A program made the translations under genes and the position numbers. DNA of 64,000 bases, from positions 1 to 64,000 of the forward strand of contig NZ_BAAAYN010000011.1 in assembly GCF_039536245.1 (NCBI RefSeq), given 5' to 3'. This DNA is from Cryptosporangium minutisporangium. GTDB lineage: Bacteria > Actinomycetota > Actinomycetes > Mycobacteriales > Cryptosporangiaceae. Below the pieces are notes generated by a model, which searched no databases, was not told where the DNA came from, and saw only the letters and a program-made list of their open reading frames with translations. Shown in pieces: positions 49-42,262 of the stretch. Position 1 is the first letter of the stretch. Each line of letters begins with the position of its first letter.

Positions 49-143
49 TTTTCGGGAAGGGCACCTCACCGCGGGGCGCGAGAGGTTGCCTTTCGGGAAA
101 ACCACCTCACCGCGCGTCCGGAGAGGTTGATTTTCGGGAAAGC
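49..143. repeat. 95-bp direct repeat, copy 1
   Basis: This copy matches 645-740 with about three substitutions and one single-base indel. It contains three TTTCGGGAA cores separated by CACCTCACC and GAGAGGTTG segments. The two copies flank the 32-bp-unit array at 387-580. Confidence 0.85.
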
Positions 144-386
144 CGCGCGCCCGCGCCCGGCGCACGCCCGCTCCGCGGCGCCTCGGCGTAGCGCCGCCCG
201 GGCGGACGGGCCGATCTTCCGGCGAGCACGTCACGACGCGCTGCACCGTCAAGCGGTCGTGGTAACGCCTCCCAGCGCAGAGTGCCCGGCAGTGCAACGG
301 CGGGTGACGTCGCTGCACCGGCGGGAGGCACCCGCCCGACCGACACCGGTGCTGGACACGAGCCCTGGCTGACACGACGTCGGAGG

Positions 387-580
387 GTGGTTGTCGGCGT
401 TTCCGGGTGCACGCCGAATGGGTGCTGCGCTTTCCGTGCCATGGTCCGGAATGCACGACAACCACCCTGGGCAGCGCCCCGAAAGCACGACAACCACTGG
501 GTGCGCCACCCGGAAACCGCACCAACCACCCCGCACGGCGCCCGGAGAACGCGCCAACCATGAGCGGCGCCACCCCGACG
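387..580. repeat. 32-bp-period repeat array, small copy
   Basis: One GTGGTTGTCG unit begins at 387. An imperfect palindrome around TCCGTGCCATGG follows near 433-450. Units in the opposite orientation (CACGACAACC and variants) then begin at 454, 486, 518 and 550, exactly 32 bp apart. The layout of arms converging on a CCATGG-centred palindrome is the same as in the larger array at 41210-41880. Confidence 0.8.
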
Positions 581-644
581 GCCGCCTCTGTCGAGCAGTC
601 AGCCACTCCCGGTGGCACGACCATGCATCGTCGCGAGGGGTGGC

Positions 645-30445: not shown

Positions 30446-32800
30446 ATGGTCGCGAGGAATGATGCGACCGCGGCAGCGGGTGGGGGCAACCGGTTCGAGT
30501 GGGACGTGGCGCTGTCGTTCGCCGGCGCGCAGCGTGCCTATGTAGAACGGGTAGCGGCTGCGTTGCGCGCGGCGGGAGTGCGGTGTTTTTACGATGTCGA
30601 CGAGCAAGTCGCGCTCTGGGGTGAACACCTGGCCGAGGTGCTTCCGGCGATCTATGCCGAGCGAGCACGGGCCGTTGTGCTCTTCATCTCGGCGGAGTAC
30701 GCGGCGAGGCAATGGACGCGCTTGGAGCGTCGCTCCGCGCTCGTTCGCGCGGCCCGGGAGCAATCGGAGTACGTGCTGCCGGCGCGTTTCGACGACACCC
30801 AGCTACCCGGAATACTGTCCGACTTGGTGACGGTCGACCTCCGCAGTCGCTCTCCGGAGGAGTTCGCCGACCTGGTCGTGGACAAGCTCTCCAAGCTGGG
30901 GCTTGGGAGCGCGGTCCCTCCCAAGCGCGCACGGTCGGTCGCGGTCGTTCGGGGCCTGCCGCCGCGGAACCGATTGCACACCGGACGCGAAGCAGTCTTG
31001 GAGAGGGTCGGCGGTGCGCTGGAGACCGGGCCAGTCGCCGTGGTCGCTGTCCAAGGCATGGGTGGGGTCGGAAAGACTCAGATCGCGTTGGAGTACGCCC
31101 ACCGGGGGGTGGCTTCCGCCAAGTACGGCTTTGTCGGCTGGATTCGCTCTGAATCCCAGCTGACGCTGGTCGAGGACCTGGCCGGGCTCGCGCCCGCGCT
31201 GGGCGTGCCGGTGACGGCGGACCTGGACGAGACGGTCGCTGCGGTCCGCGCAGCGCTCGGGGCCCAGGATGCGTGGCTGATGGTGTTCGACAACGCTCCG
31301 GACGCCGTCGCGCTCCGACGATGGCTGCCGGACGGACCCGGCCATGTACTGATCACCTCCCGTGACCGGGGTTGGCGTCGCGTCGCAGAGCCGATTGAGG
31401 TAGAGCCATTCACCCGAGGAGAGTCGATCGCCTATCTGCAAGCGGCGACCGGCAACTCGGCCACCGGCACTACCGTGGACGCGCTCGCCGACGAGCTCGG
31501 CGACCTGCCGTTAGCGCTCGCGCAGGCAGCGGCCTACATGGACCGTCACCGACTGTCGATCGGGGGCTACTTCGCGCTCTATCGATGGCAGGCGGAGGCT
31601 GGTCGGTGGCTCGCGGAGCCGCTGGAGGACTATCCGGCCGGCGTTGCGACAACGTGGCTGATCCAGCACACCGCCCTCGCTGCCGCGGATCCGGCGGCGT
31701 TACAGCTTTTGCGGCTGTGCGCGTTCCTCGATCCTGACGAGATCGACCTTGGCCTTCTGCTCTCCCGCCGGGAACAGTTGGCCGGAGATCTTACCTCGGC
31801 GCTGGCGGACGCAGCCGGAGATCCGGCGAGCATCGAGGCCGTGATCGGTGCGCTGACGAAGACCGGGTTAGTGACTCGGCTGGACGACACGCGGCTTCGC
31901 TTGCACCGGCTGATCGCCCTGGTCACCCGACACCAACTCGCCGCAGACCGGGCTGAGGCGGCATGGGCCTCGCACGCTGCTCGGCTGATTCACGTGCTCT
32001 TCCCCGATCAGCCCTGGGACCACCCCCATTGGCACACCGTCGCCCGGCTCGCCGCGCACGCCACCGCGGCAGCCGCGCACGCAGCGCGAACGGCGACAGC
32101 CGCAGGCCAGGCACCGCCGGACGAGGCCGGCGCGGTGTTGAGTCTTCTCGGCGCCTACCTCGGGGAACGCGCGGACTATTCCACGGCGTCGGCTGTGCTC
32201 AGCCGGGCGTTCGCGCTGACCGAAGCCACCCATGGGCCCGAGCATCCGGAAGTTGCCCGCACTCTCGGCAACCTCGCTCTCGTCCAGAAGGCACTCGGTG
32301 AGCACGAGGCAGCTCGCGCCAGTCTGGAGCGGGTGCTCGCGATCTTCGAAGCCGTGGACGGGTCGGACCATCCTCGAGTCGCTCGCACGCTGAACAACCT
32401 GGGCAATGTCCAACGCGAGCTGGGCGATCTCGATGCCGCCCTCACCAACCTCCAACGCGCCCTCGCCATCGAGGAGAACGCCTACGGACCCGACCACCCC
32501 GAAGTCGCACGCACCCTCGGCAACATCGGCAACGTCCAACGCGACCTCGGCCAGCTCGATGCCGCCCTCACCAACCTCCAAAGCGCCCTCACGATCCAGG
32601 AAACGGTTTACGGGCACGACCACCCCGACGTCGCCCGGGCCCTGGCTAATCTCGGCTGCGTCCAGCAGGCTCGCGGCGATCTCGACGCCGCCCACAGCAG
32701 TTTCGAGCAGGCCCTCTCGATCTTCGTGTCGGCCCTCGGCGCGGGACATCCCGACGCATCCTGGGTCCAGCGCCTCTTTGACGGTTTGGCGGACCCCTGA
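30446..32800 (+). CDS. TIR-NTPase-TPR protein (bacterial NLR-like, STAND)
   Basis: A 784-residue protein. Residues about 17-150 form a TIR domain (WDVALSFAGAQ, FYDVDEQVALWGEHL, VVLFISAEYAARQW) with Glu94 in QWTRLERR at the NADase position. Residues 175-560 form an NB-ARC-like STAND NTPase: Walker A GMGGVGKT (204-211), Walker B WLMVFDN, LITSRDR, GDLPLALAQ. The C-terminus has at least four 42-residue kinesin-light-chain-type TPRs (HPEVARTLGN). Such proteins sense phage or stress ligands and activate NAD+ cleavage; a defence role is inference. TACCCT seven bases before ATG 30446 suggests a leaderless transcript. Three TTA codons, rare here, and its place in a pseudogene zone suggest acquisition. 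Confidence 0.9.
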   Translation: MVARNDATAAAGGGNRFEWDVALSFAGAQRAYVERVAAALRAAGVRCFYDVDEQVALWGEHLAEVLPAIYAERARAVVLFISAEYAARQWTRLERRSALVRAAREQSEYVLPARFDDTQLPGILSDLVTVDLRSRSPEEFADLVVDKLSKLGLGSAVPPKRARSVAVVRGLPPRNRLHTGREAVLERVGGALETGPVAVVAVQGMGGVGKTQIALEYAHRGVASAKYGFVGWIRSESQLTLVEDLAGLAPALGVPVTADLDETVAAVRAALGAQDAWLMVFDNAPDAVALRRWLPDGPGHVLITSRDRGWRRVAEPIEVEPFTRGESIAYLQAATGNSATGTTVDALADELGDLPLALAQAAAYMDRHRLSIGGYFALYRWQAEAGRWLAEPLEDYPAGVATTWLIQHTALAAADPAALQLLRLCAFLDPDEIDLGLLLSRREQLAGDLTSALADAAGDPASIEAVIGALTKTGLVTRLDDTRLRLHRLIALVTRHQLAADRAEAAWASHAARLIHVLFPDQPWDHPHWHTVARLAAHATAAAAHAARTATAAGQAPPDEAGAVLSLLGAYLGERADYSTASAVLSRAFALTEATHGPEHPEVARTLGNLALVQKALGEHEAARASLERVLAIFEAVDGSDHPRVARTLNNLGNVQRELGDLDAALTNLQRALAIEENAYGPDHPEVARTLGNIGNVQRDLGQLDAALTNLQSALTIQETVYGHDHPDVARALANLGCVQQARGDLDAAHSSFEQALSIFVSALGAGHPDASWVQRLFDGLADP

Positions 32801-40293: not shown

Positions 40294-41057
40294 ACACCCT
40301 CGCGGAGTTACACGACCTCACCGGCAAGGTCGCGGTGGTGACCGGGGGGACCCGGGGCCTGGGCCGGGCGATCGTCCAGGGTCTCGCCGAGGCCGGCGCC
40401 GACGTCGTCGTCGCCTCGCGCAAGCCCGAGGCCGTCGAGGCGGTGGCCGCGGAGCTGCGGGCGTCGACCGGTACCAAGGCGGTCGGGATCCCGTGCCACG
40501 TCGCGAACTGGGACGACTGCGACCGGCTCGTCGCCGCGACCCTGGAGCGGTTCGGGCGTCTGGACGTCCTGGTGAACAACGCGGGCATGTCCCCGCTCTA
40601 CGAGAGCTTGGACGCGATCACCGAGGAGCTCTACGACAAGACGTTCGGCGTCAACCTCAAGGGCCCGTTCCGCCTCGCGGTGCACGCAGGCACCCACATG
40701 GTCGCGAACGGTGGCGGGTCGATCATCAACATCGGCACCGCGGGCTCGCTGGTCGCGGGGCCCGCGCAGCTGCCGTACGTCTGCGCGAAGGCCGGGCTCA
40801 ACGCGCTGACGGTCTCGCTCGCCGACGCGTTCGCGCCGGCCGTGCGGGTGAATGCGATCCTGCCCGGCCCGTTCCGCACCGACTCCAGCAAGGGCTGGGC
40901 ACCGCCGGAGGGCGAGGACGTGCCGTTCGTGCCGCTGGGCCGGATGGGCCGGCCGGAGGAGGTCTCCCCGCTCGTCGTCCACCTGGCGAGCGCCGCGTCG
41001 AGCTTCACCACCGGGGCGATCATCCGCGTCGACGGCGGCGTCACGAAGAAGGTGTGA
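40290..41057 (+). CDS. SDR-family oxidoreductase
   Basis: A 255-residue SDR with VAVVTGGTRGLGRAIVQGLAEAG, LVNNAGMSP, NIGTAGS, the catalytic Tyr-Lys in YVCAKAG and TTGAIIRVDGG. The serine of the triad is replaced by Thr in the usual NxxS position or lies in GTAGS. The ATG at 40290 (GGAGG upstream) overlaps the TetR stop; the longer frame before it is antiphase in the TetR gene. It probably acts on the hydroxyacyl intermediate produced by the divergent kinase-dehydrogenase operon. Confidence 0.92.
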   Translation: MNTLAELHDLTGKVAVVTGGTRGLGRAIVQGLAEAGADVVVASRKPEAVEAVAAELRASTGTKAVGIPCHVANWDDCDRLVAATLERFGRLDVLVNNAGMSPLYESLDAITEELYDKTFGVNLKGPFRLAVHAGTHMVANGGGSIINIGTAGSLVAGPAQLPYVCAKAGLNALTVSLADAFAPAVRVNAILPGPFRTDSSKGWAPPEGEDVPFVPLGRMGRPEEVSPLVVHLASAASSFTTGAIIRVDGGVTKKV

Positions 41058-41209
41058 CGCCGCGGGCGGGCGGGTTTTGCGGCTTTTCAGGAAGACCACC
41101 TCTGAGGCGTACCGTTCGCCAAGGGCTCGTGGCGGCCACCGCTCGACAGAGGTGGTCACCGGGGCGGCGCTGGCCAATGGCTGTCGCCCTCTCCGGGTAG
41201 CGCCCGGGG

Positions 41210-41880
41210 GTGGTTGTCGCGCACCCCGCGTCGCGCCCGGCGTGGTTGTCGCGTCTCCCGGGCAGTGTCCAGGGTGGTTGTCGCGCACCCCGCGTCGCGC
41301 CCGGCGTGGTTGTCGCGTCTCCCGGGCAGTGTCCAGGGTGGTTGTCGCGCACCCCGCGTCGCGCCCGGCGTGGTTGTCGCGTCTCCCGGGCAGTGTCCAG
41401 GGTGGTTGTCGCGCACCCCGCGTCGCGCCCGGCGTGGTTGTCGCGTCTCCCGGGCAGTGTCCAGGGTGGTTGTCGCGCACCCCGCGTCGCGCCCGGCGTG
41501 GTTGTCGCGTCTCCCGGGCAGTGTCCAGGGTGGTTGTCGCGCACCCCGCGTCGCGCCCGGCGTGGTTGTCGCGTCTCCCGGGCAGTGTCCAGGGTGGTTG
41601 TCGCCCTCTCCGGGCAGCGCCCGGCTTGGTTGTCGCCTCCTCCCGACGACACACGAGGTGGTTGTCGCTTTCCCCGGGTAGCACCCGGCGTGGTTGTCGC
41701 GCTCTCCGGGCGACACACGAGGTGGTTGTCGCTTTCCCCGGGTAGCACCCGGCGTGGTTGTCGCGCTCTCCGGGCGACACACGAGGTGGTTGTCGCGCCG
41801 TCCGTGCCATGGCACGGAAACCACGACACCCATCTCGACGACACCCGGAAACGACGACAACCAACCCGCCAACAGCCGGC
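41210..41880. repeat. 32-bp-period tandem array ending at an 18-bp palindrome
   Basis: GTGGTTGTCG (once TTGGTTGTCG) begins at 41210 and every 32 bp to 41786, nineteen starts with no phase slip. Two unit types alternate, so the first six pairs form near-identical 64-bp dimers. Later units diverge but keep the period. At 41801-41818 lies the perfect palindrome TCCGTGCCATGGCACGGA. After it, degenerate units in the opposite orientation (CGACAACC-type) extend to about 41880. Confidence 0.92.
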
Positions 41881-41904
41881 CACCACCGCACCGCCGGCCG
41901 CGAG

Positions 41905-42205
41905 GAGTGATCTTCCCGAAAAACCATGCCTCAGCGCTGCCGGTGAGGTGGCCTTCCCGAAAAGCCACCTCACGGGCGGCTCGGTGAGGTGGTCATCCCG
42001 AAAAGCACCCGCGGCCCGCCGCGAGGGGTGACCTCCCCGAAACCGCGTCCGCGGGGCGACGCGGAGGCGTGGTCATCGCGAAAAGCCACCCCGCAAGCGG
42101 CTTAGTGAGGTGGCCTTCCCGAAAGCCGCCGCACCGCCCGCCCTCAGAGGTGGTCTTCCCGAAAAACCACCCCGCCACGGGCACGGCGCGGTGGGTGGCT
42201 TTCCT
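41905..42205. repeat. Cluster of TTCCCGAAAA hairpin repeats
   Basis: At least six units carry CCCGAAA flanked by GGTGG- and CCACC-type arms. The clearest is 41943-41973, where GTGAGGTGGC and GCCACCTCAC pair perfectly (10 bp) around an 11-nt loop. The same family, read on the other strand, occurs at 49-143, 645-740 and 13787-13820. They are REP/BIME-like. Confidence 0.78.
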
Positions 42206-42262
42206 GGACGGCTGCACCGGGAACCACCCTCTTGCGTGGCCCACCTCACACGCTTACAGTCG

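Follow-up and report, generated by a model that had tools for sequence, protein, structure and literature searches.

A 32-bp repeat array in an actinobacterial genome is probably the long arm of a BOX/MITE-like interspersed element

A new family of modular, non-coding, BOX/MITE-like interspersed elements probably accounts for the tandem array at 41,210–41,880 of the window, which would be the amplified long arm of a single copy. The window comprises positions 1–64,000 of contig C11, and the genome is a 9.23-Mb draft in 152 contigs. Three lines of evidence carry this reading: 56 loci with a common anatomy, empty orthologous sites, and centres that lie outside predicted genes. The family looks nearly species-restricted and looks to possess a conserved, possibly protein-binding core. 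The full element would have the order head, end unit, half-unit, palindrome, half-unit, n units, and tail. A copying process that works in trans would have dispersed it within this lineage, with copies surviving mainly behind genes, where no promoter is broken, and the 32-bp unit or a 64-bp dimer would multiply within a copy by slippage or unequal recombination.

Structure of the array and of a second, compact copy

The motif GTGGTTGTCG starts 19 times at intervals of exactly 32 bp (41210, then +32, +64, and so on to +576 at 41786) when one mismatch is allowed, as an earlier note on this DNA had stated. Eighteen of the 19 starts are exact, the one at 41626 carries one mismatch, and the count includes the half-unit abutting the palindrome. 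The array extends outward by one degenerate unit to approximately 41177 via a 33-bp step. The perfect 18-bp palindrome TCCGTGCCATGGCACGGA at 41801–41818 (0 mismatches) and the reversal of the units beyond it are likewise borne out: about two opposed units lie to its right, namely one at 41855 (one mismatch) and one degenerate half-unit adjoining the palindrome. Together, the opposed arms make a strongly asymmetric inverted repeat of approximately 20 units versus 2; the array has a Tandem Repeats Finder score of 841. The stretch 41208–41591 consists of six identical 64-bp dimers, so that two unit types alternate; the alternation that the earlier note had described holds for this stretch, whereas other unit types occur nearer the palindrome. 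For TCCGTGCCATGGCACGGA with up to three mismatches, the chance expectation is 0.07 matches per 64 kb, and two matches were reached in none of 100 shuffles. Chance is no fair account of the array or of the copy at 387–580. The features of the array and its surroundings are as follows.

41058–42231, no strand: whole composite missing from the orthologous gap in the congeners G002 and G003 (gap between aligned blocks; boundaries approximate)
41081–41107, plus strand: single copy of a second hairpin family with a 41-bp period (TTTTCGGGAAGACCACC type)
41108–41187, minus strand: probable degenerate tail module (tail HMM), weak; the element runs right to left
41177–41808, plus strand: long arm with 32-bp steps (outermost step 33) and 20 units, the half-unit next to the palindrome counted
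41208–41591, plus strand: six identical 64-bp dimers of two alternating unit types; recent local amplification
41801–41818, no strand: central perfect palindrome TCCGTGCCATGGCACGGA
41819–41866, minus strand: short arm of a half-unit and the conserved end unit (GTTGGTTGTCGTCGTTTCCGGGTGTCGTCGAG)
41883–42171, minus strand: tandem run of approximately seven 41-bp hairpin repeats, in the expected head position

The tail of this array is doubtful: the tail HMM gives E = 2.5e-5 for 41084–41187, which includes the adjoining hairpin, and E = 0.044 for 41130–41187 with the hairpin excluded. The head HMM has no match at the array, with or without trimming of the flanking hairpin.

The smaller version with the same centre, noticed earlier at 387–580, is real. 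Its palindrome at 433–450 has two mismatches and is bordered by one full unit on the left and by two exact plus degenerate units on the right. Its features are as follows.

49–147, plus strand: repeats of the 41-bp hairpin family, to the left of the second element
247–391, plus strand: head module (head HMM, E = 2.6e-26; this copy belongs to the training set)
384–563, plus strand: short arm, palindromic centre (433–450, two mismatches), and long arm of approximately four units
551–624, plus strand: tail module (tail HMM, E = 9.6e-11; outside the training set)
645 to approximately 743: three more copies of the 41-bp hairpin beyond the second element

Rfam yields no match at gathering score in the 64-kb window. 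Elsewhere in the window, at 32377–32693, two to three 126-bp tandem repeats lie inside a predicted gene (30677–32800) and appear TPR-like as judged by eye.

Dispersal and anatomy of the family

The exact palindrome TCCGTGCCATGGCACGGA occurs at four places in the genome. The motif GTGGTTGTCG occurs 246 times genome-wide versus 25 times for a reversed control, and the exact 32-bp-spaced pair, for which the earlier note had proposed a genome search, 82 times versus 0 in the control. A sequence-only model built from 13 copies (R1) gives at least 191 matches at E ≤ 1, counting both strands and submatches. The stretches around the matches resolve into 56 loci in this genome and 10 in the congener G002. 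Weak members of the 56 are the second copy of L009, L014, L121, L122, and L123 (score < 50), and the number is likely a lower bound because several copies lie at contig ends.

All 56 loci share a polar anatomy: a palindromic centre separates a short arm from a long one, in which 1 to 31 units are present. Oriented alike, the copies feature a common end unit (consensus GTGGTTGTCGCCGTTTCCGGGTGCCGCCGAG) with a half-unit, the palindromic centre, and the long arm of opposed units; fuller copies add a head of approximately 150 bp and a tail of approximately 80 bp. After trimming of the hairpins and at E ≤ 1e-3, the head is found in 18 and the tail in 17 of the 56 loci, whole or partial—training copies counted, 12 for the head and 11 for the tail—and 38 and 39 loci, respectively, have no detectable head or tail. 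At the same threshold, every match of the head and tail models in the DNA searched lies at an element, and the HMM search detects neither module in the 10 loci of G002. Two distinct end modules around a variable internal module (n = 1 to 31) are present in fuller copies only. The earlier judgment that the array is something other than random satellite DNA agrees with these data: the element is a genome-wide family and no lone satellite.

A search of phage and plasmid collections with one whole element (L094:5734–6168) gave no match, and the paired-unit pattern was not found in viral contigs; a phage or plasmid origin was rejected on these grounds. Among contigs of 84,980 species, from which this genome itself is possibly excluded, the paired-unit pattern occurs in nine stretches with one match each, except for a Myxococcota MAG with three. 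The contig of this MAG (L056) carries its three exact paired-unit copies within approximately 200 bp, and they are probably unrelated. As judged at title level, no paper on this 32-bp-unit repeat was found in the literature.

Ends of the element and the 41-bp hairpin family

The second interspersed hairpin family has the core TTTTCGGGAANNCCACC and a period of approximately 41 bp when tandem; in the window, it occupies 49–147, 645–743, 41081–41107, and 41883–42171. With up to one mismatch, this core has 179 matches in the genome, none for the reversed control, and no more than one in any of four relatives. The hairpin often flanks the 32-bp element and occurs elsewhere too, also as head-to-head pairs approximately 35 bp apart. 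A 15-bp motif, GCGGTCGTGGCAACG, is found inverted at both ends with up to three mismatches in four loci only (L010, L087, L094, and L096). Inverted matches between the head and tail models vanish once the flanking hairpin is trimmed; they came from this hairpin, and terminal inverted repeats are therefore not established.

With up to one mismatch, GCGGTCGTGGCAACG has 10 matches genome-wide versus 6 in the control, and 5 of the 10 are at these elements. Inspection of these 5 matches found no autonomous partner IS with the same ends. Membership in a RAYT-driven REP/REPIN family would account for many copies of a palindromic intergenic repeat and is the most improbable of the readings weighed here. 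The layout is unlike that of REP sequences, and Y1_Tnp (PF01797), the sole transposase family searched, has no match in 5 genomes, whereas 5 of 14 control genomes are positive. The REP/RAYT family was rejected on the result for these five genomes.

Distribution and empty orthologous sites

At E ≤ 1e-5 with stricter filters, R1 finds the element in 2 of 298 genomes of the order, which represent 76 genera. Relatives of the element occur in one of three congeners (G002). In G001, G003, and G004, R1 finds nothing at E ≤ 0.001 and R2, a model built from the G002 copies, nothing at E ≤ 0.01. The R2 search lists 12 places in G002, of which 10 copies were read; each carries, on either side, roughly one unit plus a half-unit, and the long array is absent.

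The array in the window lies between two genes on the same strand that, as read from the translations, encode a short-chain dehydrogenase, with its stop at 41057, and, beginning at approximately 42405, a Rieske-type dioxygenase. The gap between the aligned blocks measures 1183 bp here (41049–42231), 19 bp in G002, and 69 bp in G003; the site comparison rests on these two congeners since G001 has no close match to the gene adjoining the array. The presence of 41-bp repeats in the same inserted stretch means that the insertion may have been stepwise. Six of the seven loci with orthologous DNA in G002 are empty there (the array in the window, L090, L093, L094, L096, and L122), the weaker cases being L096, a long rearranged gap, and L122, which contains an N. 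Any single empty site could be a loss. No target-site duplication is clear by eye at the six empty sites, where the flanks have diverged. The remaining site is occupied in both species (L118 here, L126 in G002). At this site, L118:6028 and L126:6052 apparently carry the core version of their own species (TGTCG here and TGTGG/TGCGG in G002), as could result from concerted change or from separate insertions at the same spot.

Growth of the array and unit phase

Units are 85.4% identical within loci versus 64.7% between loci; these comparisons, the tally of 348 steps, and the comparison of the core exclude L014, L023, L119, L122, and L123, which have odd centres, N's, or both. Among 348 steps, 294 measure 32 bp, 35 measure 31 bp, and 8 measure 33 bp. 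A step of 29, 30, 31, 33, or 35 is present in 32 of the 53 loci having at least two units, which indicates that an exact phase is not required; the steps 32-31-32 open the arm in ten loci. The commonest long arm has four units including the half-unit, within the range of 1 to 31 units as walked. The long runs are local duplications, and the exact 32-bp phase is largely their product. Because of the likeness of units within a locus and the varied steps elsewhere, the perfect phase in the window mainly marks recent duplication. The local homogenisation and the identical dimers are also the grounds for proposing slippage or unequal recombination. The earlier suggestion that a step of 32 bp, as three helical turns, keeps every unit on the same face of the DNA is left without support by the 32 loci that break the phase.

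Homogenisation within loci and identical 64-bp dimers are also what plain satellite DNA would show, i.e., slippage of a chance 32-bp duplication without an element and without selection. This reading is very improbable: the genome has 56 dispersed loci with this unit and centre, and between loci the core is conserved versus the spacer. The dispersed copies refute satellite slippage as the whole explanation; it is a fair account of the growth of the array.

In this draft assembly, an N lies within 800 bp of the centre in 9 of the 56 loci, so that long arrays may be collapsed or misjoined. Single N's in the arrays or beside the palindrome at L023, L119, L122, and L123 resemble places where scaffolds were joined at the repeat, and several contigs start or stop within these arrays.

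Genomic location and direction

None of the 56 centres lies within a gene predicted by a simple codon-usage gene caller; the walked long arm enters a predicted gene at L019 and L117. After exclusion of five loci at contig ends, the 51 loci with both neighbours comprise 19 convergent, 29 tandem, and 3 divergent contexts, compared with 39 convergent, 130 tandem, and 79 divergent among 248 gaps in the same DNA with a minimum length of 150 bp. By Fisher tests, divergent gaps are depleted (p = 1.4e-6) and convergent ones enriched (p = 1.4e-5), the enrichment being less safe because the background gaps are drawn from element-centred stretches and because elements themselves lengthen gaps. The direction of the element in tandem gaps is free (15 and 14) and agrees with gene direction in 30 of the 56 loci. 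It agrees with the local GC skew, calculated without the element stretch, in 40 of the 56 loci; the p value of 0.002 comes from one among several tests. Replication polarity is thus hinted at by the skew, though neither by gene direction nor by the orientation of neighbouring elements. Adjacent elements on one contig have the same direction in 7 cases and opposite directions in 8, i.e., there is no large-scale polarity as expected of a site that guides toward the origin or terminus.

Chromosome-organising sites of the KOPS, matS, or parS type feature replichore polarity or a position near the origin or terminus. The earlier note favoured a host protein-binding array, such as a nucleoid organiser or a centromere- or terminus-like site, in which the helical phasing of 32 bp matters. 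This is unlikely. It agrees with a core that is conserved next to a much freer spacer, with the 294 of 348 steps of 32 bp, and with the 40 of 56 loci in which direction matches the local GC skew (p = 0.002). Against it stand the steps that deviate from 32 bp in 32 of 53 loci, the range from 1 to 31 units, and the 7 same-direction versus 8 opposite neighbours; in addition, the element is not found in two of three congeners and is missing at 6 of 7 orthologous sites. The chromosome-organising role is left without support; that the array lies in an insertion missing from the same site in two congeners argues against an essential role of this kind.

Core conservation and pairing of the arms

Pairwise identity between loci was determined from one first unit per locus in the 43 loci whose first step is 32 bp. 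It amounts to 0.88 at positions 2–11, which is biased upward since these positions were used in walking the units, to 0.72 at positions 12–21, which were not used for walking, and to 0.49 at positions 22–32. A 20-bp core, TGGTTGTCGCGCTTTCCGGG, is kept between loci, whereas the spacer is much freer, and the halves of the palindromic centre carry this core too. The core reads TGTCGCG in this genome and mostly TGTGGCG or TGCGGCG in G002. Preservation of the core while the spacer drifts suggests that something recognises it—most likely a DNA-binding protein, either a mobilising enzyme or a host factor. The proposal of the earlier note that the array binds protein may hold to this extent, as a conserved core and a free spacer would be expected of repeated binding sites; its exact phase is unneeded.

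A specific form of this idea, to which we assign a low likelihood, takes the 20-bp core as the site of a lineage-specific DNA-binding protein. The element would be a dispersing vehicle for arrays of sites, with a palindromic nucleation centre and a locally growing array, and the site differs as a set between the two species, apparently at the shared locus L118/L126 too, as if the specificity of the protein had changed alongside.

A transcription terminator or a stabiliser of mRNA 3′ ends would, like BIMEs, act behind genes through a long hairpin of RNA formed by the inverted arms. This is distinctly improbable, even though the elements sit behind genes and all 7 folded copies give predicted hairpins of greater stability than the shuffle average (z −3.0 to −10.9); the low folding energies follow from the symmetric consensus. 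In 48 of the 56 loci (score > 60, at least 14 centre matches, L018 and L023 excluded), the arms are complementary at 853 of 1152 positions versus 830 when re-paired (z 2.6; 7 of 2000 permutations reach 853). This excess is small, and none is seen across the 10 copies of G002 (177 of 240 versus 178 re-paired). Changes in the arms are one-sided in 286 cases versus 45 matched and 13 unmatched two-sided cases. Covariation was rejected as proof of a hairpin on account of the small excess in this genome and its absence in G002. In addition, ordinary terminator-like hairpins, as judged by eye, adjoin the element at L012, L018, L022, and L090, and the one at L090 is present in the empty site of G002 too. 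From sequence comparison, the pattern points to recognition of the DNA sequence rather than to a kept RNA stem.

Significance and comparison with known systems

The BOX/MITE-like element described here adds an actinobacterial modular interspersed family in which the internal unit multiplies fast as a tandem repeat and at the same time is constrained in sequence. Knowing what recognises the core would show how the elements move, or reveal a host protein gaining hundreds of sites in one lineage. The unit number should serve well as a strain-typing marker, and draft assemblies break or carry N's at these arrays.

BIME, REP, and REPIN sequences are often located behind genes. The element resembles them in being palindromic and extragenic and differs in the layout and size of its unit and in that no RAYT gene was found here.

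Bacterial MITEs such as RUP, ERIC, and the Correia elements are described as small, intergenic, hairpin-forming, and presumably moved in trans (PMC2229807). The element shares these properties with them and, in addition, is missing from the orthologous sites in G002 of six of seven loci. Unlike RUP, ERIC, and the Correia elements, it is GC-rich, contains an internal tandem array of up to 31 units, has weak inverted ends, and shows no target-site duplication by eye.

BOX elements of Streptococcus pneumoniae are non-coding, interspersed, and modular with the order boxA – n × boxB – boxC (PMC3049150). In both systems, a tandem module whose copy number varies lies between end modules that differ from each other, and the elements cluster with other repeat families. 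In contrast to BOX, a central palindrome reverses the units and creates a short and a long arm, the unit measures 32 bp with a conserved 20-bp core, and the ends are often missing. BOX also has a proposed partner IS (same source), whereas none was found here via the end motif. The element is not filed as a member of BOX or of the MITEs because it is likened to them by description, inverted ends and a target-site duplication are not established, and neither a partner IS nor a RAYT was found. By this descriptive rather than sequence likeness, we take it to work as BOX does: End modules enclose a variable internal module, the spread is lineage-specific, and copies would be tolerated behind genes.
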